Shown here piece after piece: positions 2,124-19,093 of a stretch of 33,588 nt of DNA. The notes below the pieces were generated by a model, which was given only the letters and a program-made list of their open reading frames with translations, ran no database searches and was not told the origin of the DNA. Where the stretch lies: NCBI GenBank assembly GCA_025358765.1, contig JANYIG010000117.1:1-33588 (forward strand), in the 5' to 3' direction. The stretch's first letter is position 1. Each line of letters starts with the position of its first letter. This stretch comes from Candidatus Kapaibacterium sp. GTDB taxonomy: Bacteria > Bacteroidota > Ignavibacteria > Kapaibacteriales > UBA4661. The position numbers were made by a program, and so were the translations under genes.

Positions 2124-3041
2124 TTACTTTGCAGAAACAGGCATATCGCGTAATTTCAATTTCACTTCAAACATTTTGCTCCAAAGTTTCCCTGTTACAA
2201 GCATCCTATCGCGCTTGGGGTCGTAGGCAACGCCGTTCAGGACGTTGTTTTCTTGCCTGTCTTGTGTGCTAATGAGGCTACTCATGTCTATCCACCCCGT
2301 CACTTTACCCGTGGTAGGATTGATGCGGGCTATGGAGTCTGAGAACCACACATTAGCATAAACTTCGCCCTTGATAAACTCCAGTTCGTTCAAATTTTTG
2401 AGCGCCGTAGTGTAACCGTTGGCTTCGTAGGTGACGGGAATCGTCTTGCGAACGGATAAATCCGTCGTGTCCATAAAGCGCAATAGGTTCGATCCGTCGC
2501 TCATTATCAAAAATTCACCGTCGTTGGTCAATCCCCAGCCCTCGCCAAAATAGCTCAATGTACGTTTCGCTTTGAAGGAATGTGCGTCGTAAACGAAGCA
2601 CGTTTGCTCACGCCACGTAAGTTGAAAAACCTGGTCGTTTACAATCGCCATACCCTCAGCAAAAAATTCCGCCGGAACGTTGATTTGCTTTAATACCTTG
2701 CCTGTGTTCCAATCCACTTTCCGCAAGCTGGACGACGCATATTGCCCTGTACTTTCATAGAGTTCACCTTTATAAAAACATAATCCTTGCGTGAATGCTT
2801 CGGGGTCGTGCGGAATGGTGCGGATAATCTCTGGAATATAGACGGGAAGCGGTGGAGCGGCATTCATAGTCGGCGAAGATTGATTGGGATTTTGATTGGA
2901 AGTGGGTTTGGAAGAATCTGTTGTTTGCGGGTTCTGGGCGGATTGCGAACCGTCAATTTTGGGTCTGTTGCACCACGTCAGTGCCAGCAAAACAAGGATT
3001 GAAGCGGCTACAATGGGAACGGCGTTGCGAAATTTATTCAT
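2124..3041 (-). CDS. Glutaminyl-peptide cyclotransferase (plant/bacterial beta-propeller type)
   Basis: 305 residues. The enzyme converts N-terminal glutamine of peptides to pyroglutamate with release of ammonia. The N-terminus has a hydrophobic export segment ending in a Cys (LALTWC), which could be a lipidation site although the Trp before Cys is atypical. A Ser/Thr/Asn/Gln/Pro-rich tether covers residues about 30-65. The propeller carries the recognisable family stretches FTQGLCFYKGELYESTG, TWREQTCFVYD, GEGWGLTNDGEFLIMSDG, NELEFIKGEVYANVW and NVLNGVAYD. Length fits the family. It probably acts in the periplasm or on the outer envelope. It lies downstream of a lipase-like gene on the same strand with about 100 bases between them, so it may be co-transcribed. 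The family assignment is strong; native substrates are unknown. Confidence 0.9.
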   Translation of the reverse strand: MNKFRNAVPIVAASILVLLALTWCNRPKIDGSQSAQNPQTTDSSKPTSNQNPNQSSPTMNAAPPLPVYIPEIIRTIPHDPEAFTQGLCFYKGELYESTGQYASSSLRKVDWNTGKVLKQINVPAEFFAEGMAIVNDQVFQLTWREQTCFVYDAHSFKAKRTLSYFGEGWGLTNDGEFLIMSDGSNLLRFMDTTDLSVRKTIPVTYEANGYTTALKNLNELEFIKGEVYANVWFSDSIARINPTTGKVTGWIDMSSLISTQDRQENNVLNGVAYDPKRDRMLVTGKLWSKMFEVKLKLRDMPVSAK

Positions 3042-3143
3042 GGATTTAGCTATGAGGTTGCGAGAGATTGTAACGCTAATGCTACAAAATACGGAACTTG
3101 AATTGAATTTACCGCGAAGGAATTTACCGCGAGGGGTTCAAAA
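3042..3143. repeat. Two-copy 15-base tandem repeat in a short intergenic gap
   Basis: Between the lipase-like gene and the glutaminyl cyclase gene, the 15-base unit GAATTTACCGCGARG occurs twice in tandem at 3105-3134, differing at one position. The rest of the gap shows no clear terminator. Two units are too few to call a functional repeat; it may be replication slippage. Confidence 0.5.
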
Positions 3144-4517
3144 TCATCGTACAACCCAACTTTTTGTGTTGGTAAATTGGTTTCCGTAGGAGTTTTTGAC
3201 AGTGAAGGAAAATTCCATTGGCTTGCTGACATCAAGCGATGACGGAAACGGGAGTACCGCTTGCGCCACAACGGTGCCGTTTTGCTTGCGAACGAGGCTA
3301 ACGCTTTCGTTCGGGATGCTGAAGCGCTGTGGTGTGGCTTTGGGGTTCTGCAAGTCGCTTACGGTAATTGTCACTGTAAGCGTTTGTGGTGGAAGATTGT
3401 CGCCGAACTCTACGACGAGTGCTGGCTTCCCGCCAATTTGATAAAACTCCGCGCCCTTAAATTCTGGCTGATCTTCGAGCGACACGCGCTGAATTTCCGT
3501 GCTATTGCGAAGATGATCTTCGTGGACGGTCGAAAGCGTGATGGTACGGGCAATGCGACGGCGATTCGGGTCTGCCTGAAACCACGGTAATTCCGTAATC
3601 GTCTGGCTTTTAGCGCTGACTACACCGTCACCTTCGGTAAAAAGCGATTCTAATCCAAAACCCAAGAACTCCAGCACCCGTCGCAAAAGTTCCTGTACAC
3701 CTGCTTTACTCAAACCTTCCAGCTCTTTGAATACCTCTACTTTCCCGACTATGCTGATGTATTCAATGTCAAGCGGATGTTGCGTGACTCCGGTGCGCCG
3801 CATAAACTCACCACCATCTTCAGGGCGCAATAAATCTCGTACGGCAAACGCATCAAACGGCACATCGCGCTCCAAACCCTTCACTACATTGAGCGCTTGA
3901 TTCAGCGCTATTGATGCGAGCGGATTCGATGTTTCCCTCGCAGCATTCGCTAAGGCTGTTTTCCATTGATAGACTTTTGCATATGGTGAGCCTTGATGCG
4001 GACTACCGACTGTCACCAAACGCCGAACGTGGTGGTCGTTGATGTGCTCCGTCAGGTAATATCTGCCAGCCACGCCGCCCATGCTGTAGCCTATCAATAT
4101 CACTTTTTCTGCCCGCGTCCGCTCCAGCACAAGCCGGATGTACTGTTCAAGCTCATTTTTCCATGCACCGATGGAATCAATAGGATTGGAAAACGACACC
4201 GTAAAAAAATCAGACGCGCCCGATGGATTTTTGCTTTCAAGCATATATTGACCATTCGTCTTTTTCAAAACACCGCCATACCGAAGTTTCATATCCCGTT
4301 CGTAATATTGCACGGCGTAGGCATCCCATACGGCAGATTTTTGCCCCAATCCGTGCAATAGCAAGATAGGATATGGCACTTGCGTAGTAGTGATGCGCTC
4401 TTGCGGTGGTAGCTCCGGCAGTAGTACGGTTTGTTTGACCGATGCACATTGTACAAGGAGCAACACAAGCAATGACGAGGCTATGGGCAGAAACAGTAAA
4501 CGGAAAATTCGTGTCAT
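3144..4517 (-). CDS. Lipase-like alpha/beta hydrolase, probable lipoprotein
   Basis: About 457 residues from the ATG at 4517; an upstream in-frame ATG at 4535 would add six residues, but the later one gives a normal export signal. The N-terminus MTRIFRLLFLPIASSLLVLL is followed by VQCAS, so it is either a cleaved signal or an atypical lipobox. The hydrolase core starts at PYPILLLHGLGQKSAVW, typical of the oxyanion-hole strand of PGAP1/DUF676-type lipases. The nucleophile elbow is VILIGYSMGG with the catalytic Ser in GYSMG. A later region (LVTVGSPHQGSP) matches the family strand after the nucleophile, and TVHEDHLRN could hold the catalytic His. The last ~100 residues look like a beta-sandwich extension. 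It probably hydrolyses a lipid or ester outside the cytoplasm; the substrate is unknown. It is the upstream gene of a probable two-gene unit with the glutaminyl cyclase. Confidence 0.8.
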   Translation of the reverse strand: MTRIFRLLFLPIASSLLVLLLVQCASVKQTVLLPELPPQERITTTQVPYPILLLHGLGQKSAVWDAYAVQYYERDMKLRYGGVLKKTNGQYMLESKNPSGASDFFTVSFSNPIDSIGAWKNELEQYIRLVLERTRAEKVILIGYSMGGVAGRYYLTEHINDHHVRRLVTVGSPHQGSPYAKVYQWKTALANAARETSNPLASIALNQALNVVKGLERDVPFDAFAVRDLLRPEDGGEFMRRTGVTQHPLDIEYISIVGKVEVFKELEGLSKAGVQELLRRVLEFLGFGLESLFTEGDGVVSAKSQTITELPWFQADPNRRRIARTITLSTVHEDHLRNSTEIQRVSLEDQPEFKGAEFYQIGGKPALVVEFGDNLPPQTLTVTITVSDLQNPKATPQRFSIPNESVSLVRKQNGTVVAQAVLPFPSSLDVSKPMEFSFTVKNSYGNQFTNTKSWVVR

Positions 4518-4696
4518 ATTTTGGCAATAAAGCATGATATAAAATCTGTTCGCCCCAAAACTACAAAACCACGAGCATTTTTTCGCCTATGTGATGAAAA
4601 AATCAAAAAAATCATTACCATTGAAAAATCGTTGTACATCATTACCAGAAGCGATAAGTTGTTGCCTCTTGATATTCACAAACACCGATGCCGGTT

Positions 4697-5029
4697 ATGA
4701 GCGACGCAGAACAACTCTTTCGTGATATTGCCAATCAAATAGTATCAACCAACGATGCAGCGCTTGGTACGATGTTTGGCAAACCCGTCGTGATGATAGC
4801 AAAGAAGGCATTTGCAGTGTTTTTTAAGGATACAATGGTTTTCAAACTGAGCGAAGAAGACCATCGTTTTGCAATGGCATTGTTCGGAGCAGAACTGTGG
4901 GATCCATCCGGCAAACACCGCCCAATGCGCGAATGGGTACAAGTGCCTTACGAACACCGCGAACACTGGCTTGGATTAGCCGCATCAGCACTCAAACACG
5001 TCCAAAGCACGATTCAACCCGAGGCTTGA
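4697..5029 (+). CDS. TfoX N-terminal-domain-like protein
   Basis: A 110-residue protein (113 if the ATG at 4688 is used; neither start has an obvious ribosome site). The middle, TMFGKPVVMIAKKAFAVFF, followed by FKLSEEDHRFAMAL and the C-terminal REWVQVPYEHREHW, fits the small TfoX-N/YjbR-like fold seen in stand-alone bacterial proteins. In gammaproteobacteria TfoX/Sxy activates competence genes. Stand-alone members of this family elsewhere have no established role, so no competence function is claimed. It lies 19 bases upstream of a histidine kinase gene on the same strand, which suggests co-transcription. Confidence 0.7.
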   Translation: MSDAEQLFRDIANQIVSTNDAALGTMFGKPVVMIAKKAFAVFFKDTMVFKLSEEDHRFAMALFGAELWDPSGKHRPMREWVQVPYEHREHWLGLAASALKHVQSTIQPEA

Positions 5030-5048
5030 GACTCTATTCCAAAATCTC

Positions 5049-7139
5049 ATGTGCTGGAACAGATGGAACGTTGCTTCGATACTTCTCGTTATTACCATTC
5101 TATTGTGGTGCGCCGCGCTGCAATCCGCATCCGCACAGCCTGTCAGTACATCCGAACTTTCAACTGCCGATAGCACGTTCGGCATCACGCGCTTGCAGAG
5201 CGGTCAGCACGCCTACAATCTTACCACAAACCTGCTTCTTTACGAGGATACAACAAATAAACTTTCGCTCGACGACATCCTCGCAAATCCGCTTTTGCCA
5301 CGCTTCCAGCATTACACACAGCCCGCGCTGAATATAGGTTATTCTAATTCCTCGTATTGGATAAAGATGGTGTTCGTAAACGATATACCCGAAAAAGAAG
5401 GCACGGACTGGCTTTTAGAGTTCAATAACCCCAATATCGGCTTTTTAGAGTTTTTCGTCCAAGATCCGACGGGACATTTTCAAACTATCACAACGGGAAC
5501 ATATCTGCCGTTCGTACAACGCCCCACACAACACCGCCATGTCATCATTCCATTCGCATCGCTGCCTGTCCAGTACGGGAAGCCGTTCGTGTGTTATGCT
5601 CGCATCTGTTCCGGCGAACCAATACGTCTTGCGCCGACGATTTGGCGGACTGCTCAATTTTACGAATACGATTCCGCCCGAACGTTGGTTCTGGGTTTGT
5701 ACTACGGCATTTTGATGATTGTTGCGTTGTACAATCTTATGTTGTTTCTGATTGTCCGCGAACGGAGTTATCTTTTTGCATCACTGTTTATGCTGATTGC
5801 GTGGCTAATCCAATTCACGAACGACGGCTTGGCGTATCAATATCTTTGGTCACGGGCAAACGTCTGGAATCAAGAAGGGCGCGGCTTGTTGAACGGCGCA
5901 GTGTTTGTGTTTTTGACACTGTTTGCACGGAATTTTTTGCAAACAGCGAACTCAATGCCACGCTCTGATGCCATTTTGCAGATTTTTACCATTGCGTCGG
6001 TGCAATTGGTGGCATTAAAATTTCTTGTCTATATTCACAATGCTGGATACGTACACACCTGGCAGGCGGACACGCTATTTTTTATTGCTGTGGTGGCTCT
6101 GCCTTCTTTCTACCTTGTGCGGCAGGCACGACGCGAGCAATGGAATAAGGCGCTTCGAGCAGCAATGATGATTTCGTCGGTGTTTTGGATTGCAGGCTTC
6201 ACCACCAACAAATTCGTGGAGCATGGATTGAGCACATTCGACCGAATTATGAACGCTCTTATTCCCACCGGCAGCGTCGTAGTGATGACCCTTGTTGCGC
6301 TGATGCAAACACGGCGCGGAAACCGCACGGCGCGGGTATTTCTGGCAGCGGCGTGGACGCTCTCGGCAGCAATTTTGGTCGAAGAATTACTGCATATTGG
6401 CGTGTTACCATCGAATATCCTCACAGAATCCTTCATGAAATCTGGGACTGTTATGATGGCTATATTGTTTTCTCTGCCGCTTGGCGACCGCATCCGCAGC
6501 CTTCGCCAGCGCACAGAGGAATTAGAACTTACCTCGCTGGCAGCACAGAAGGCTGCTGCCGAAGCTCGGTTGGAAGCGCTTCAGGCGAAAATCAATCCTC
6601 ATTTTTTGTTCAATACGCTGAATTCCATTGCAAGCCTCATCAGTATTGATGCGGCAAAAGCAGAACAAGCAGTAGTGCGACTTTCTAAACTTTTTCGCTA
6701 TACGCTTCATCGTTCCGGCGCTTCCGCCAAAAACACGGCAACGCTCGCCGAAGAGATTGACGTGGTGCGAATGTACCTTGAGTTGGAGCATCTGCGGCTT
6801 GCCGAGCGGCTCCGCACCACGATTGACGTGCAAGGCGACGCGAAAACCGTGCTGTTGCCCGCACTCACGCTACAGCCGCTCGTCGAGAATAGTGTGAAAT
6901 ATGCCGTTGCACCACGAGCAGCGGGCGGAACGATTGTTATCACTGCCATAGTGGATGAACGTTCATGCCGCATCGTTATCCGCGATGATGGTGCGGGGTT
7001 GACAGGACGCGCCTCCGACAGCGGACACGGGCTTCAAAGCGTTCAGGAACGGTTGGCATTGATGTTTGGCGAGCGATGTTCGTTTGAATTGCGCGACCAC
7101 GACGGCGTAGAGATCGTCATTACTCTGCACTCAGCCTAA
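5049..7139 (+). CDS. 7TM-DISM sensor histidine kinase of the LytS/YehU type
   Basis: 696 residues. A signal segment (about 1-30) is followed by an extracytoplasmic 7TMR-DISM extracellular domain (about 60-200, with YSNSSYWIKMVF and WLLEFNNPNIGFLEFF). Then come seven hydrophobic segments (about 213-470, starting GLYYGILMIVALYNLMLF). The His_kinase domain has its phospho-accepting His at about residue 518 in AKINPHFLFNTLNSI. The ATPase part has PLVENSVKYAV as N box and RDDGAGLTG plus HGLQSVQERL as glycine boxes. It therefore senses a ligand outside the membrane, possibly a carbohydrate, and phosphorylates a partner. Kinases of this type normally pair with a LytTR response regulator, but none is encoded in this window, so it is an orphan here. 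The ATG at 5049 is only 19 bases after the TfoX-like gene. Confidence 0.93.
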   Translation: MCWNRWNVASILLVITILLWCAALQSASAQPVSTSELSTADSTFGITRLQSGQHAYNLTTNLLLYEDTTNKLSLDDILANPLLPRFQHYTQPALNIGYSNSSYWIKMVFVNDIPEKEGTDWLLEFNNPNIGFLEFFVQDPTGHFQTITTGTYLPFVQRPTQHRHVIIPFASLPVQYGKPFVCYARICSGEPIRLAPTIWRTAQFYEYDSARTLVLGLYYGILMIVALYNLMLFLIVRERSYLFASLFMLIAWLIQFTNDGLAYQYLWSRANVWNQEGRGLLNGAVFVFLTLFARNFLQTANSMPRSDAILQIFTIASVQLVALKFLVYIHNAGYVHTWQADTLFFIAVVALPSFYLVRQARREQWNKALRAAMMISSVFWIAGFTTNKFVEHGLSTFDRIMNALIPTGSVVVMTLVALMQTRRGNRTARVFLAAAWTLSAAILVEELLHIGVLPSNILTESFMKSGTVMMAILFSLPLGDRIRSLRQRTEELELTSLAAQKAAAEARLEALQAKINPHFLFNTLNSIASLISIDAAKAEQAVVRLSKLFRYTLHRSGASAKNTATLAEEIDVVRMYLELEHLRLAERLRTTIDVQGDAKTVLLPALTLQPLVENSVKYAVAPRAAGGTIVITAIVDERSCRIVIRDDGAGLTGRASDSGHGLQSVQERLALMFGERCSFELRDHDGVEIVITLHSA

Positions 7140-12400: not shown

Positions 12401-12507
12401 CCTACACATCGGCATTCCTTCTGACTTTTTGTCATGAATGCAAAGAGACAAAATTTGTTAATTTCACTGTGATGATATTTCTTGGGTAATCGTTGGAGCT
12501 GAGAACT

Positions 12508-15500
12508 ATGAACAGATTTTTTATACGATTTGTGTGCTTATGCTGTGTTGTTGTTGCTTTCTTGTGGTGCGACAATATCCAATCACAACCCCTCACATTT
12601 CGTCGCATTGGCACAGAGCAAGGACTCTCCCAGTGTACAGTCGTGGCGATGCTACAAGACCGCTATGGATTTATGTGGTTTTGTACGCAAGACGGGCTTA
12701 ATCGCTTTGATGGTTATACGTTCAACATCTACAAACATAACCCCGCCGACTCCACCTCACTTTCCAGCAGTATGATTCTTAGCATCTATGAAGACCATGA
12801 AGGTATTTTGTGGGTGGGGACGTATAACGGCTTAAATCGTTTTGATCGAGCAAGTGGAACATTTACCCGATATTACCCAGACAGTGTTCGCACTCCTCAA
12901 AAATGCGGTATTTGGAATATGAGCGAACTACTCGATGGGCGATTCGTTGTTACCACCAGCAGCGGACTTTTCCAGTTTAACGCTCGCAATCGGCAACTGG
13001 TCACGTTTGCCACTTCCGATGAAAGTAATAACGTATTTCGGGGAAAATTTTGCCAACGAGTTCCAAATCATCATGGACGCTTTTTAGTTCGGGTCGAACG
13101 GCAATTATTTGAATATGATGCTCAGGCAAATCGTTTTGTTGCTGTTTCTTATACGCCGTCTTCTATTCATCCGTATCGGAATATACTACTGCCTGTGTAT
13201 GTGGACAAAGCTGGTTCATACTGGTCGGAGACCGAGGCATATGCAGATTCAACAATTAGGGGTATCTACCGATTTATCCCCGCATCTGCGGGACGACAAG
13301 AACAGTGGATTCGTTGTAACAACAGTTCTCAAACTTTCCATAAACCAATTGATATGATTGGCAGACCATATCAAGACAGGCAAGGTAGGATGTGGGTGCA
13401 ATCGTTAAATGGTTTGAATTTATACGATACTGTTCAGAACAAATTTACGCAGTACCATCATATCCCTTCCAACCCCTTATCGCTCGGCGCTGACCAAATA
13501 TTGTGTATGTATGAGGACAGGTCGGGATTATTGTGGGTATCTTCCAATGGAAGTGGTCTTAACATCATGCTGCCCCAGAAGTTTGAGCAATACGTCCTGT
13601 CAAATTCTATAGTATCAAAACAGGACGAGCGCTTTCATTTTTTGAAAGGCATTGCAGAGGATGGCAATGGAGTATTATGGATTGCGGAATATGACCATAA
13701 CCTGCGTACATTTAACTCTACATCGGGCTTGTTTACAGAATACAAGGATGCAAAATCTTCAACGGATGTGCGGATAAATTCTATTTTGTGTTTACATCCG
13801 GACGACGATGGCAATATTTGGTTTGGTGGCTCTTTCAATCGTTTAGGAAAATATTCTCCGCGCACTCATACTTTCCGCTATTTTAACCAGCTCGATTCCA
13901 CCACACCAACGGGTGATTTATTGCTAAGGCGTTCTATGCGCCATATTGCCGAAGATAAGCATGGTTTTTTGTGGTTAGCCACAGACAGAAGCGGGTTACA
14001 GGTATTTCACAAACAGACGGAGCGTTATGTAAAACGCTTTCTGGGTAATCTTGATGTGAGCAATGTTTTTGTGAGTCGTTCCGGTATAGTCTATGCGGGT
14101 ACTGACGGGTCGGGTGTTTATGCTTTTACGCCAATTTCAAATTCGGCTGCTTCAAAAAACTCGTTGCCAGAATACGCAGTGAGCCACTATGCTCATGACC
14201 GCAACAACCCCCAGAGCCTTAGTCCACATAATACGGTGAAGTGTTTTTATGAAGATGCAAACGGCAATATATGGATCGGGCTTGATGGCGGCGGGTTGAA
14301 TTGTTTGAACCCTACCACGCAAACATTCAAGCGTTATACAGAACAAAACGGTCTGCCGAACAATGTTGTTTATGGTATTTTGCCAGACGATGTTGGTAAC
14401 CTTTGGCTCAGTACTAATAAAGGCATATCAAAATTTTCTCCGGCAACAACGACATTTCGTAACTATGATGTGTCGGACGGCTTGCAGGCAAATGAATTTA
14501 ACACCAATGCTTTTTGTCGTTTACGCAACGGGAAAATGGTATTTGGGGGCATTGGCGGCATCAACATGTTTTTTCCTGATTCTGTGCGTGACAATACCCA
14601 CCTGCCACCAGTGATGCTCACCGATATATTAGTGAATGACAAGCCCAAATATATGCCGCAAGGATTGGAACAGTTGCAAGAACTTACGCTACCGTACAGC
14701 GAAAACACCGTATCGCTTACGTTTGCTGCGTTAGATTACACGAATTCCGCAAAAAATCGCTATATATACAAAATGGAAGGCATTGATAAGGATTGGGTGC
14801 AAAGCGGTGCGGTGCGTACCGTTCGGTATGCTGCGCTTCCATCGGGAGAATATTTTTTTCGGGTCAAAGCCTGCAATAATGACGGGGTATGGAATCAAGA
14901 AGGTATTATGCTCCGCATCCGTCTGATTCCACCGTTCTGGCAGACGGCGTGGTTTTATGCATTGTGTGTGGTCGGTACGCTTGGCGGGGTGGCGGGAACG
15001 GCACGATTTGTGTCGCGGCAGCGTTTGCTCAAGCGCATTGAGCATTTGGAACACGAGCGTGCAATAGAGCGGGAGCGCTTAGAGCGGGCATTGGCGATTG
15101 AGCACGAACGCGGGCGCATTTCCCAAGATATTCATGACGAGGTAGGCCCGGGCATGACCAAAATCTTATTGCTTTCCGGTTTTGCCGACAGCATCGGCGC
15201 AAACAGCAGCCATCGTGACAATGGAAGTGGTGAATTAGGGCGGGCAACGCAGGAAGTCATTGAGTCTTTGAACAGTATTATCTGGATGACTAATCCCAAA
15301 AACGACACGCTCGACCATCTTGCAGCATACATTCGTGAATATACCATTGAGTATCTTGATAAAACTGCGATTACATGTCGTTTTAATTTCCCAGATACAG
15401 TACCTATGCTGCATCTGTATGGAACATTGCGACGGAATATTTTCCTGACGGTGAAAGAGGCGCTGAATAATATTGTCAAACACGCCCAGGCAAGCCAAGT

Positions 15501-15750
15501 TACTATCATGCTACAGATGGAAACGCCTATCGAGTTTCAGATACAAATTGCAGATAACGGACAGGGTTTTGCCACGGGGGAAACTTCTCGTCTTGGGAAT
15601 GGTTTAGGGAATATGCGAAACCGCATGAGGGAGTGCGGGTGCGGGTTCGAGCTAATGAGTATGGAGGGCAGGGGGACAAATGTTACTCTTTATATCCAAT
15701 CCACTGGGCTGCCCGAGACAAGCCTTGTCAAACATGGAACAAAATACTGA
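12508..15750 (+). CDS. Two-component-propeller sensor histidine kinase (NarX-like kinase core)
   Basis: 1080 residues from the ATG at 12508, preceded by GGAG about ten bases upstream; a TTG at 12493 is less likely. A signal peptide (MNRFFIRFVCLCCVVVAFLW) leads to two seven-bladed propellers built of ligand-sensing repeats of the pattern 'DxxGxxWxGTxxGLxRFD' (for example DRYGFMWFCTQDGLNRFDGY and DHEGILWVGTYNGLNRFD). Next is a Y_Y_Y domain (about 735-800, with YIYKMEGIDKDWVQ) and one membrane helix (about 808-830). The kinase has a HisKA_3 dimerisation helix with the His at about 876 in ISQDIHDEVGPGM, then HATPase_c (TVKEALNNIVKHAQAS, IADNGQGF, GNGLGNMRNRM). Such proteins sense extracytoplasmic ligands, often glycans in Bacteroidota. 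The LuxR-type regulator at 15885 is the likely partner. Confidence 0.95.
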   Translation: MNRFFIRFVCLCCVVVAFLWCDNIQSQPLTFRRIGTEQGLSQCTVVAMLQDRYGFMWFCTQDGLNRFDGYTFNIYKHNPADSTSLSSSMILSIYEDHEGILWVGTYNGLNRFDRASGTFTRYYPDSVRTPQKCGIWNMSELLDGRFVVTTSSGLFQFNARNRQLVTFATSDESNNVFRGKFCQRVPNHHGRFLVRVERQLFEYDAQANRFVAVSYTPSSIHPYRNILLPVYVDKAGSYWSETEAYADSTIRGIYRFIPASAGRQEQWIRCNNSSQTFHKPIDMIGRPYQDRQGRMWVQSLNGLNLYDTVQNKFTQYHHIPSNPLSLGADQILCMYEDRSGLLWVSSNGSGLNIMLPQKFEQYVLSNSIVSKQDERFHFLKGIAEDGNGVLWIAEYDHNLRTFNSTSGLFTEYKDAKSSTDVRINSILCLHPDDDGNIWFGGSFNRLGKYSPRTHTFRYFNQLDSTTPTGDLLLRRSMRHIAEDKHGFLWLATDRSGLQVFHKQTERYVKRFLGNLDVSNVFVSRSGIVYAGTDGSGVYAFTPISNSAASKNSLPEYAVSHYAHDRNNPQSLSPHNTVKCFYEDANGNIWIGLDGGGLNCLNPTTQTFKRYTEQNGLPNNVVYGILPDDVGNLWLSTNKGISKFSPATTTFRNYDVSDGLQANEFNTNAFCRLRNGKMVFGGIGGINMFFPDSVRDNTHLPPVMLTDILVNDKPKYMPQGLEQLQELTLPYSENTVSLTFAALDYTNSAKNRYIYKMEGIDKDWVQSGAVRTVRYAALPSGEYFFRVKACNNDGVWNQEGIMLRIRLIPPFWQTAWFYALCVVGTLGGVAGTARFVSRQRLLKRIEHLEHERAIERERLERALAIEHERGRISQDIHDEVGPGMTKILLLSGFADSIGANSSHRDNGSGELGRATQEVIESLNSIIWMTNPKNDTLDHLAAYIREYTIEYLDKTAITCRFNFPDTVPMLHLYGTLRRNIFLTVKEALNNIVKHAQASQVTIMLQMETPIEFQIQIADNGQGFATGETSRLGNGLGNMRNRMRECGCGFELMSMEGRGTNVTLYIQSTGLPETSLVKHGTKY

Positions 15751-15884: not shown

Positions 15885-16502
15885 ATGACCACGCTTGCTG
15901 TCGTCGAGGATATTCACGAGTATCGCAGTTTTCTTCAAACGCTCATAAATGGCGCGGAGGGGCTACAATGTGTTGGTGTTTTTGCGAATGCGGAAGACGC
16001 TCTTGCGAATATTCCCACATTACAACCGGAAATCATCCTGATGGATATTGGTTTGCCGCGTATGTCTGGCGCTGAATGCGCAGAACGTCTGAAAATATTA
16101 TGCCCCAACATACAAATTATGATGTTGACTATTTTTCAAGATTCCGACCGAATTTTTGAGGCATTAAAGTCAGGCGCAACGGGGTATTTGCTCAAAAAAA
16201 CATCGCCAGCACAGATTGTGGAAGCTATTTACAATCTACGCGATGGCGGAGCGCCGATGTCCGCGCAAATTGCCCGTAAGGTTGTCGAAGCATTCCAGCC
16301 CGATCCCGCACTCCAAACATTGACTCCACGGGAAAAAGAACTGCTCTCCTATCTTGCCAAAGGGTATTCGTACAAAGAGATTGCTGCTGTTGTCTTTATC
16401 AGCGTCAAAACAGTGAATAAACACATCTATAACATCTACGAAAAACTTCACGTGAACTCAAGCACGGAAGCTGTTGCCAAGTTTTGGGGTAAAAATTCGT
16501 AG
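15885..16502 (+). CDS. NarL/FixJ-family response regulator (receiver + LuxR HTH)
   Basis: 205 residues. The ATG at 15885 is preceded by GAGGA. The receiver domain has the acidic pair E8-D9 in VVEDIHEY, phospho-acceptor Asp54 in IILMDIGLP, the switch Thr in MMLTIF and Lys104 in LLKKT. The C-terminal LuxR-type helix-turn-helix (about 145-200) contains LTPREKELLSYLAKGYSYKE and the recognition helix region VKTVNKHIYNIYEKL. HisKA_3 kinases characteristically pair with this family, and the propeller kinase ends 134 bases upstream on the same strand, so this is very likely its cognate regulator. The gap holds no terminator I could see. Target genes cannot be told from the sequence. Confidence 0.94.
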   Translation: MTTLAVVEDIHEYRSFLQTLINGAEGLQCVGVFANAEDALANIPTLQPEIILMDIGLPRMSGAECAERLKILCPNIQIMMLTIFQDSDRIFEALKSGATGYLLKKTSPAQIVEAIYNLRDGGAPMSAQIARKVVEAFQPDPALQTLTPREKELLSYLAKGYSYKEIAAVVFISVKTVNKHIYNIYEKLHVNSSTEAVAKFWGKNS

Positions 16503-16538: not shown

Positions 16539-18287
16539 CTACAGCTGATACGCCCTGACGTGATGGCTGCCGCCCTTAACCTTCACATCAAACGAGGGTA
16601 ATTCACCCAAACTGTCTTCAATCATAGTGTAGGTCGCCTGGGAGAGAAGGCAGCCATTGGCTCCGGCGCTGCGCTGAAGCGCTTTCGCAACGTTGATGCC
16701 GTCGCCAATCATAGAATACGACAGACGATGTTTTTTGCTGCCGAAATTTGCCAAAATAAACGTGTCGGAGTGAATGCCAATGCGAACTTTGATAAGCTCG
16801 GTAGCATCGTCGTTGTAATTATCCAAATATTCAAATATCGAGACTGCCGTGTCAATCGCATTCAGCGCGTCATTCAGCCGATCGCCGGAAGAATCAAAAC
16901 GCACCAACAGCTCATCGCCCACGATGCTGTCAATCGTGCCTTGTTTTTCGATGATAATCCCCATCACCGCCTCGAAATAGCTATTCAGTTCGTTCACGAT
17001 TTTTCCGGCATCGCTCCACGCACCGATTTTCGCGGAAAAACTACACATATTACACGACATCAACGTCGAGAAGCGCTCTTCCGGCGCGGGGTCATCCTTA
17101 ATACCCGCAATCACGTCCCACACGGCTTTCATTGCGTCAGGCGAGGCGTATTTTTCGAGGCGCTCTTCGCGTTTGCGACGTAACCCTTGCGCGGCAGTGG
17201 TTTTCACAATACGCTCCAAATCATCCGCCGTAAACGGTTTTGTTAAATACGCCGAAATGCCGAGCGAACGCGCTTTACGCTTGTCTGTCACGGTCGAACG
17301 CGACGACACCATAATCACCGGAATGCCTGCCGTTTCCTCATTCGAGCGAACATTGCTGCAAAATTCCCATCCATCCATCACGGGCATGTCGTAGTCGGAC
17401 GTGATGATGTCGGGTTTCTGCTGCGCCATGAGTTCAAGCGCCTCGCGTCCGTCGGCGGCAGTCAACACTAAGTAGCCAAGCTGTTTGAACATCTTGGAAA
17501 TTAGGTTTCGCACGGTCACACTGTCGTCCACCACGAGCGCAATCAAACGTTTGCCCTTTTTGGGCGGTTTGACGACGTTGTAAATGATGGGAAGATGTTT
17601 TGCGCGGTCGAACGGATACATAAGCACATCGTTGGAACCGGCTTCAAAACAATCCTCGATGATATCCGCGTTGTTTGTGCGTGCAAAGACGATAACGGGT
17701 ATCTGCCCCAGCAAATGTGAACGCTTAATAAGTGTGCTGAACTCCGCACCACTGCGCTGTGGCAAGTCGTAGTCGCACAAAATAAGGTCGGGGAACTGGT
17801 CGCTGGCAATTTTGACCGCTTCCTCCGCAGAACGCGCCCACGTGACCGTAAAATCAAACAGCTCTTTTGCTTGCTCTAATGACGAGGTAAGCTCTCCCAA
17901 TTTGCTGACGACAAGAATTTCCTTCGGCATGTTCAGGATAGAACGCAAGATTTGGTCAAATTGTTCTGCCTTGAATGGAATCGGTAAAAAACCATCGGAG
18001 CCAACTTTGTAAGCAAATTCCGCACCTTCCGGGCGCGACGCAAACACCACAATGTACGCGCCTCCGAGCGATTCGTCCGCTTTGATTTTGGCAATAAGGT
18101 TTTCGCCCGGTTTATCTATCAGCGAGGCTTGCAGGAAAATCAAATCCGGCGCTGCGAGCTGCAATTCCTCGAATAAATTCCCTTCAAGATTCATAAACGT
18201 CGTATCCATGCCCTTGGTTGTGCAGGCATCTTTGATGAATTTTGACAGAACTTTACTGTTCGAGGCAACGAAGGTTTTTACATTCAT
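16539..18287 (-). CDS. Triple-receiver protein with a degenerate class III nucleotidyl cyclase domain
   Basis: 582 residues. Three receiver-like domains stand in tandem. The first (about 3-118) lacks the acidic pair and the phospho-acceptor. The second (about 122-240) keeps an Asp in LILCDYDLP but lacks the acidic pair and Lys. The third (about 247-365) is canonical (VVDDS, Asp298 in TSDYDMPVMDG, Lys350 in LTKPF). Residues about 400-582 match a class III adenylate/guanylate cyclase fold (LNSYFEAVMGIIIEKQG, IVGDELLVRF, RIGIHSD, YSMIGDGINVA). By eye alignment the first metal-binding Asp is Asn413, the base-specifying Lys is Ser454 and the transition-state Arg is Ala536, while Asp458 and Asn532 are kept. 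It may therefore be inactive, or act as a nucleotide sensor. It is divergent from the membrane protein at 18449. Confidence 0.88.
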   Translation of the reverse strand: MNVKTFVASNSKVLSKFIKDACTTKGMDTTFMNLEGNLFEELQLAAPDLIFLQASLIDKPGENLIAKIKADESLGGAYIVVFASRPEGAEFAYKVGSDGFLPIPFKAEQFDQILRSILNMPKEILVVSKLGELTSSLEQAKELFDFTVTWARSAEEAVKIASDQFPDLILCDYDLPQRSGAEFSTLIKRSHLLGQIPVIVFARTNNADIIEDCFEAGSNDVLMYPFDRAKHLPIIYNVVKPPKKGKRLIALVVDDSVTVRNLISKMFKQLGYLVLTAADGREALELMAQQKPDIITSDYDMPVMDGWEFCSNVRSNEETAGIPVIMVSSRSTVTDKRKARSLGISAYLTKPFTADDLERIVKTTAAQGLRRKREERLEKYASPDAMKAVWDVIAGIKDDPAPEERFSTLMSCNMCSFSAKIGAWSDAGKIVNELNSYFEAVMGIIIEKQGTIDSIVGDELLVRFDSSGDRLNDALNAIDTAVSIFEYLDNYNDDATELIKVRIGIHSDTFILANFGSKKHRLSYSMIGDGINVAKALQRSAGANGCLLSQATYTMIEDSLGELPSFDVKVKGGSHHVRAYQL

Positions 18288-18448
18288 GATGATACTGTGC
18301 GATGATGTGGAAAAAATGTCGTCCGGTGTGCATGTTAGGAAGCAGCAACATAAGGGAAAAAAATCGTATCTTCAAACCCGTTACCCTACGATACAAAATA
18401 ATACGAGAATATAGTTGTGGTGGATGCTTGTACTCACGCTTTTCAACG

Positions 18449-19093
18449 ATGGATTTAACAACGATGCAATCACTTTCTGAACTTCCGATAGACGATTTTC
18501 GCCGTGCGCTGACCACAAACAATCTCCGCGTGTTGCAGATTATCTACGCCGCATTAGGAGCGGGTATTGTAATATTTCTGGCAATGATTATATTTTTAGC
18601 CATATCGTACCAAACGCCAGCTATGATGCTTGCTGCGGGTGAATCGCTGCAAACACCCTTTCAAGCTGCACCGCAAGCGATAGCGTTCATGCGGATGATA
18701 AGCATTCTTCACGGTTGTGTGGCATCCGTTCTGTACTTGCTGGCATACGTCGTATTTCAAGCGCAATTCGGCTCGCATCGGCTAAGAAATTACGCGACGG
18801 TAGCCATGCTCGACAGTCGTGGACGAACCGTTACCGCACCAGAAGAAAAGGCGCTGGCGGTTATCCGTATGGCGCTGTTAGTGCGGTTGGCGTTTTGCGA
18901 AGGCGCAGCGCTTGTAGGCTTGCTCACCTGTTTGGCGGGCGTAAGTTCCGGTGTTCTCCGTGCGGAACCGCTCTACTGGCTGAATGTAGCTTCTGCGGCG
19001 ATTATGCTCGCACTCGTCGTGTTCACGTTTCCCACAGAAAGCCGTTTGGAACGTGTGTTTTTACGGTCTGTTCGGAAGATTCACAACGCATGA
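18449..19093 (+). CDS. Unrecognised integral membrane protein with four predicted helices
   Basis: 214 residues from the ATG at 18449 (MDLTTMQSLSELPIDDFRR). The frame is open from 18302, but the upstream part is Cys/Lys/Arg-rich and not protein-like; an ATG at 18464 is an alternative. Four hydrophobic stretches are visible: LQIIYAALGAGIVIFLAMII, ILHGCVASVLYLLAYVVF, LAFCEGAALVGLLTCLAGV and LNVASAAIMLALVVF. Charged loops lie between them, and a basic tail (ESRLERVFLRSVRKIH) ends the protein. I do not recognise the family and no catalytic motif is apparent. It is transcribed away from the receiver-cyclase gene across a 161-base divergent gap, so the two may share a control region; a functional link is only a suggestion. 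Confidence 0.75.
   Translation: MDLTTMQSLSELPIDDFRRALTTNNLRVLQIIYAALGAGIVIFLAMIIFLAISYQTPAMMLAAGESLQTPFQAAPQAIAFMRMISILHGCVASVLYLLAYVVFQAQFGSHRLRNYATVAMLDSRGRTVTAPEEKALAVIRMALLVRLAFCEGAALVGLLTCLAGVSSGVLRAEPLYWLNVASAAIMLALVVFTFPTESRLERVFLRSVRKIHNA

Follow-up and report, generated by a model that had tools for sequence, protein, structure and literature searches.

Gene organization at the locus

The window, meaning the whole stretch of DNA that was analyzed, comprises 33,588 nucleotides of a Candidatus Kapaibacterium genome. An open frame of 582 codons runs from 18287 to 16539 on its minus strand, and the plus strand there is interrupted by stop codons. The encoded protein consists of three receivers followed by a class III cyclase domain (Table 1), as a sequence-only reading of this DNA had described. 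Pfam assigned three Response_reg stretches (165.7 bits) and a Guanylate_cyc domain (PF00211) at 38.6 bits against a cut-off of 21.9, a match that is weak but above the curated threshold, and the match of the predicted fold to CyaC described below agrees with the cyclase assignment.

Table 1 Features of the pseudo-cyclase gene and its product in the window.
Feature	Position	Strand	Basis
Whole gene (PsR-PsR-REC-pseudo-cyclase), 582 aa plus stop	16539..18287	-	Open reading frame and Pfam; full-length orthologs begin at the same Met
Receiver 1, pseudo-receiver, aa 1-119; S9/N10, Q53, A83 and I103 at the five active positions	17931..18287	-	Pfam, alignment
Receiver 2, pseudo-receiver, aa 122-242; S128/K129, D172 (Glu in all relatives), A202, Y224	17562..17924	-	Pfam, alignment
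Receiver 3, complete, aa 248-366; D254, D255, D298, S328 and K350, invariant in 9/9 sequences	17190..17546	-	Pfam, alignment
Linker, aa 367-405, helical stalk into the cyclase domain (low-confidence model); lowest conservation	17073..17189	-	
Class III (IIIb-type) cyclase domain, degenerate, aa 406-582	16542..17072	-	Pfam, phmmer, alignment, predicted fold
N413 at the first metal (Me1) Asp position	17049..17051	-	phmmer and MAFFT alignments
S454 at the base-selecting Lys position	16926..16928	-	phmmer and MAFFT alignments
D458, second metal (Me2) Asp, kept; GDE throughout the family	16914..16916	-	Alignment
N532, transition-state Asn, kept here; Gly in L032 and L033	16692..16694	-	Alignment
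A536 at the transition-state Arg position	16680..16682	-	phmmer and MAFFT alignments

Thirty-six bases separate the end of the gene from that of a convergent gene (15885-16502), which, judged from its sequence, encodes a LuxR-type response regulator and comes after a beta-propeller histidine kinase gene (12493-15750). On the other side, a divergent gene (18302-19093, plus strand) encodes a small hydrophobic and probably membrane-bound protein with no Pfam match. Neither this neighbor nor the arrangement of regulator and kinase was seen at the orthologous loci.

Receiver domains

Receiver 3 carries the full five-residue set of a response regulator (DD, D, S/T and K). In receiver 1, where the five active positions were placed by hand through alignment with receiver 3, all five residues are lost, and the phosphorylation site is occupied by Gln53, or by His in the relatives. 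In receiver 2 the acidic pair, the Ser/Thr and the Lys are all missing; the Asp at its phosphorylation site, Asp172, is kept in the window protein only and is Glu in all eight relatives. A pseudo-receiver has been defined as a receiver in which any one of the five residues is missing (PMC12632262), and receivers 1 and 2 both count as pseudo-receivers under this definition. The initial claim that two of the three receivers had lost the phosphorylation site is thus correct for receiver 1 and inexact for receiver 2, in which that Asp remains and the other four residues are gone. The functional conclusion drawn from it stands, since both are pseudo-receivers.

Active site of the cyclase domain

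In the class III dimer, each site is built of the metal-binding aspartates of one chain and the Lys, Asn and Arg of the other (PMC4174876). The same placement of these residues was obtained from phmmer alignments to CyaC (1wc1), Cya2 (2w01) and CyaB (3r5g), of which the CyaB alignment begins past the Me1 position and covers only the Lys, second Asp, Asn and Arg positions, and from MAFFT alignments with the cyclases of the same genome and with 46 canonical domains. The numbering proposed from the sequence alone, with positions 413, 454 and 536 altered and Asp458 and Asn532 kept, was reproduced in full. Misplacement of the catalytic positions by misalignment was rejected because the alignments to solved cyclases, the alignment with the 46 domains and the fold match concur.

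All 46 canonical class IIIb domains have D, K, D, N and R at the five positions. Among the eight full-length members of the family (the window protein and seven orthologs), the Me1 position is Asn and the Me2 position Asp without exception, and the Lys position is Ser, or Ala in L034. The transition-state Asn is kept in six members and replaced by Gly in two, and the Arg position is Ala in the window protein and Gln or Leu in the seven orthologs. A truncated ninth member, L035, has N, S and D at the Me1, Lys and Me2 positions. The three losses therefore recur in every full-length family member, a comparison that had been proposed as a check.

By its residues the domain lacks a complete metal Asp pair, the base-selecting Lys and the NxxxR motif of a class III enzyme. 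A complementary half-site would keep either the metal pair or the Lys/Asn/Arg set intact, and here both halves are damaged. As Me1 is lost together with the Lys and Arg in the same chain, no intact site is left in a homodimer or in a mixed dimer with a normal cyclase, and neither should have a working site that uses the pseudo-cyclase. Catalytic complementation by any partner was rejected on this residue argument.

Activity could be retained if displaced residues (E459, K535 and R539) took over from the lost Asp, Lys and Arg. Two of them, K535 and R539, do not vary within the family, all three are absent from the 46 canonical relatives, migrated residues are described for at least some pseudoenzymes (PMC10211241), and the atypical class III cyclase Rv1900c is cited as active in spite of lacking the transition-state Asn. 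Yet three of the five catalytic positions are lost and a fourth is variable, and E459, common to the family, is also found in ordinary relatives with an intact Asp (such as L063 and L070), so that it looks ancestral rather than a replacement. We regard a still active cyclase or related enzyme as very improbable.

Several features of the pocket are kept in the window protein: the phosphate-loop Phe417, Ser525, the Me2 Asp, Asn532 and a basic residue at the position of the conserved VKG Lys. Ser525 lies at the adenine-selecting Asp/Thr position, which was missing from the initial list of positions; it is no defect, because 31 of the 46 canonical class IIIb domains also have Ser there. Ten family-invariant residues (K420, R463, D465, R502, H506, K535, Q538, R539, N544 and C546) have no counterpart in the aligned canonical domains, and K420, R463, R502, H506, K535, R539 and C546 point to a new constrained role. 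The domain might accordingly be a sensor, whose altered pocket binds a nucleotide with one metal or a new small ligand and whose signal changes upon binding. Some nucleotide binding is possible given Phe417, Ser525, the Me2 Asp and Asn532, the new invariant charged residues are close to the catalytic motifs in sequence, and the pseudo-site of tmAC binds forskolin. Ordinary metal-NTP binding is doubtful, however, because every member has lost the residues that hold metal, base and phosphates (Me1 Asp, Lys and Arg); even Asn532 is Gly in two of them. The second site of RGC1/NeoR, moreover, lost nucleotide binding once one metal Asp was disrupted, in the reading of its authors (PMC12264004). A sensor role of this kind seems distinctly unlikely.

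Predicted fold

The structure of residues 372-582 was predicted with AF2 from 54 sequences (pLDDT 84.4, pTM 0.81). Viral contigs had been scanned with canonical domains solely to deepen the alignment for this prediction. In comparison with solved structures by VIA-align 2, the best match of the predicted model was CyaC (1wc1; Z 25.6, rmsd 1.7, 180 residues aligned), with CyaB tied at Z 25.3, and Foldseek concurred. Prediction followed by superposition on adenylate cyclases, which had been suggested at the outset, thus assigns a class III fold to the modeled domain. The full-length model was poor (pLDDT 66, pTM 0.35), and the arrangement of receivers and cyclase domain cannot be taken from it.

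Distribution and selection

Orthologs with 55-59% identity are present in eight of the nine other genomes searched of the same Kapaibacterium family, and the one family genome without an ortholog is 70% complete. No ortholog was found in 51 genomes of the same order outside the family, and a search of viral contigs for the pseudo-cyclase gave no match. Across 84,980 species genomes, a pattern scan, which reaches close relatives only, returned eight such relatives and otherwise receiver matches alone. As far as searched, the pseudo-cyclase is restricted to one Kapaibacterium family.

Pairwise dN/dS values of the cyclase domain among near relatives are about 0.04-0.08 as simple NG86 estimates, which indicates that the domain is upheld by purifying selection, as a maintained pseudo-cyclase and not a decaying one. 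Its identity to the window protein (48%, versus 67% for receiver 3) shows that it evolves somewhat faster. Sequencing error or gene decay was rejected because the frame is open in the window and in eight relatives and dN/dS is low. The orthologs, the purifying selection and the structure prediction together support the original proposal of a pseudo-cyclase with one live receiver. Judged from these sequences, the protein probably serves as a conserved regulator and not as an enzyme.

Origin among class III cyclases

Genomes of this Kapaibacterium family contain 13-26 class III cyclase domains each, counted as PF00211 places. Eighteen such places were found in the genome of the window, and the pseudo-cyclase is by far the weakest (41.9 bits versus 98.4 for the next). 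The other 17 domains are all of the IIIa type, and the genome thus encodes no like-type partner. In a tree of 52 cyclase domains, whose bootstrap was not fully settled, the eight full-length pseudo-cyclases are united in a single clade (100/100), which is set off by a long stem (2.83). The clade lies on the class IIIb side, apart from the 17 other cyclases of the genome, and its exact sister group is unsure owing to the long stem. Descent from one of the genome's own cyclases was rejected, as those are IIIa whereas the pseudo-cyclase groups with IIIb.

The catalytic residues are intact in ordinary relatives with the same GDE motif and Ser525, L063 and L070 among them. This pattern suggests that the pseudo-cyclases arose by loss from a catalytically competent ancestor. 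No intermediates were found in 395 genomes of the phylum, where scores fall from 341 to 108 bits, and all 21 loci read below this gap are canonical.

Two other unusual cyclases were encountered. A second degenerate family comprises L017/L187 in the genome of the window (G000:C277:2987-5053, plus strand) and the orthologs L188-L192. It keeps both metal aspartates (one is Glu in L188), the Lys and the base-selecting Asp, and in six of six members the transition-state Asn is replaced by Ile, Met or Gln and the Arg by Ala, Thr or Asp. Its residues resemble the NeoR pattern, which a half-site subunit of a heterodimer would be expected to show. About 1.2 kb downstream of L017/L187 lies a gene for a cNMP-binding protein. 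Separately, L076 (461-1951, minus strand), a class III cyclase of a different family within the class, carries Glu where the base-selecting Lys would be; its other catalytic residues are intact, and its substrate preference is possibly different.

Neighborhood of the orthologous genes

An intact IIIa cyclase gene with a beta-propeller sensor part is the divergent neighbor at L028, L030, L031 and L035, and dnaA lies beyond it. In these neighbors (2411-5875, minus strand, at L028) a Reg_prop/Y_Y_Y beta-propeller is fused to the intact class III cyclase and not to a histidine kinase. The gene adjoins frr, pyrH and tsf at L029 and L034, and the same block starts about 9 kb off in the window. The neighbors at L032 and L033 encode a PASTA protein and a VWA protein. 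No constant neighbor, kinase or partner, was found across the window and the orthologous loci. In a Pycsar system the PycC cyclase is paired with a PycTM or PycTIR effector. Scanning of part of the neighboring open reading frames revealed no TIR or cNMP-binding effector, and PycC profiles gave weak matches (best 40 and 54 bits), as expected of any class III domain.

These loci bear on the idea of a dominant regulatory subunit, in which the pseudo-cyclase would pair with an active IIIa cyclase and block or tune it while receiver 3 controls pairing. In its favor, PF00211 places are numerous in the family genomes, the gene is divergent from an intact cyclase gene at four of eight orthologous loci, and in tmAC and the NeoR/RGC heterodimer degenerate sites regulate the active site. 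The four cyclase-adjacent loci nevertheless belong to near relatives and count as one event, and a cyclase neighbor is absent from the window and from the stretches read of L029 and L032-L034. In addition, IIIb and IIIa domains are distant from each other, and neither site of a mixed dimer would be intact, whereas the tmAC and NeoR pairs have complementary losses. Such a subunit is unlikely on balance.

Proposed function

We consider it rather likely that the protein works as an atypical response regulator, with a class III cyclase domain that is no longer catalytic as its output. The loss of residues from both half-sites favors a non-catalytic output switched by receiver 3; the assignment of the switch to this receiver is inferred from the architecture only. 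The position of the live receiver directly before the cyclase domain suggests control by phosphorylation, as in PleD. In the mechanism we propose, a histidine kinase would phosphorylate D298 of receiver 3, and the pseudo-receivers may aid dimerization or partner binding. Phosphorylation would act via the helical stalk to rearrange the pair of pseudo-cyclase domains, in the way that a receiver and pseudo-receiver do in PleD, and the pair would act by binding a partner protein or ligand without making cAMP or cGMP.

More tentatively, this lineage-specific family may have turned the class III dimer into a purely structural, phosphorylation-gated module, which either binds a partner or ligand via the family-specific charged residues or dominantly restrains the cell's many active cyclases. 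With about 20 other cyclases per genome, there would be a use for a regulator of these enzymes. If such a gated module exists, it would be a bacterial counterpart of the pseudokinases. The family is a tractable example of a cyclase fold kept for signaling other than catalysis.

Comparison with known systems

Spirulina platensis CyaC is under receiver-type control, shares the class IIIb fold and is the best structural match of the predicted domain. The Bacteroidota REC-cyclases of 348-351 residues (L065, L075, L089 and L090) likewise have receiver-type control. Unlike the window protein, CyaC and these REC-cyclases keep D, K, D, N and R, and the short REC-cyclases have one receiver in place of three.

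Dead class III domains are already known. Rv1359 of Mycobacterium tuberculosis and MSMEG_0545 are expressed and conserved, have no first metal Asp (nor, in Rv1359, the critical Arg) and are predicted to be inactive as homodimers (PMC3961136). In these proteins the Asp is replaced by Gly or Arg rather than Asn, and a link to a receiver is not described in that study. A few cyclase-like proteins with a single metal Asp have also been noted (PMC4886424). NeoR of the chytrid heterodimeric rhodopsin-guanylyl cyclase has a class III domain without the NxxxR motif (PMC12264004); it keeps both metal aspartates and serves as a half-site donor, which the window protein, without Me1, cannot do. In tmAC and the NeoR pair, losses in the two chains are complementary and one site survives (PMC4174876; PMC12264004).

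The description of this protein as the most unusual in the window is arguably apt, although it has to be qualified by the dead cyclase domains known elsewhere. What seems new is the combination of receivers and pseudo-cyclase. The open-licence literature searched yielded no family that joins two pseudo-receivers and a live receiver to a class III domain with damage in both half-sites, nor anything on pseudo-cyclases in this bacterial group. Class III pseudoenzymes seem little studied in bacteria, and each precedent found is an individual protein for which no switch is defined.

The arrangement resembles PleD in joining a live receiver, a pseudo-receiver and a cyclase-type output, there a diguanylate cyclase (PMC12632262). 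PleD is an active GGDEF enzyme, whereas the window protein has two pseudo-receivers and a dead class III output. The family thus combines an intact receiver and two pseudo-receivers with a cyclase domain that is conserved except for its active site.
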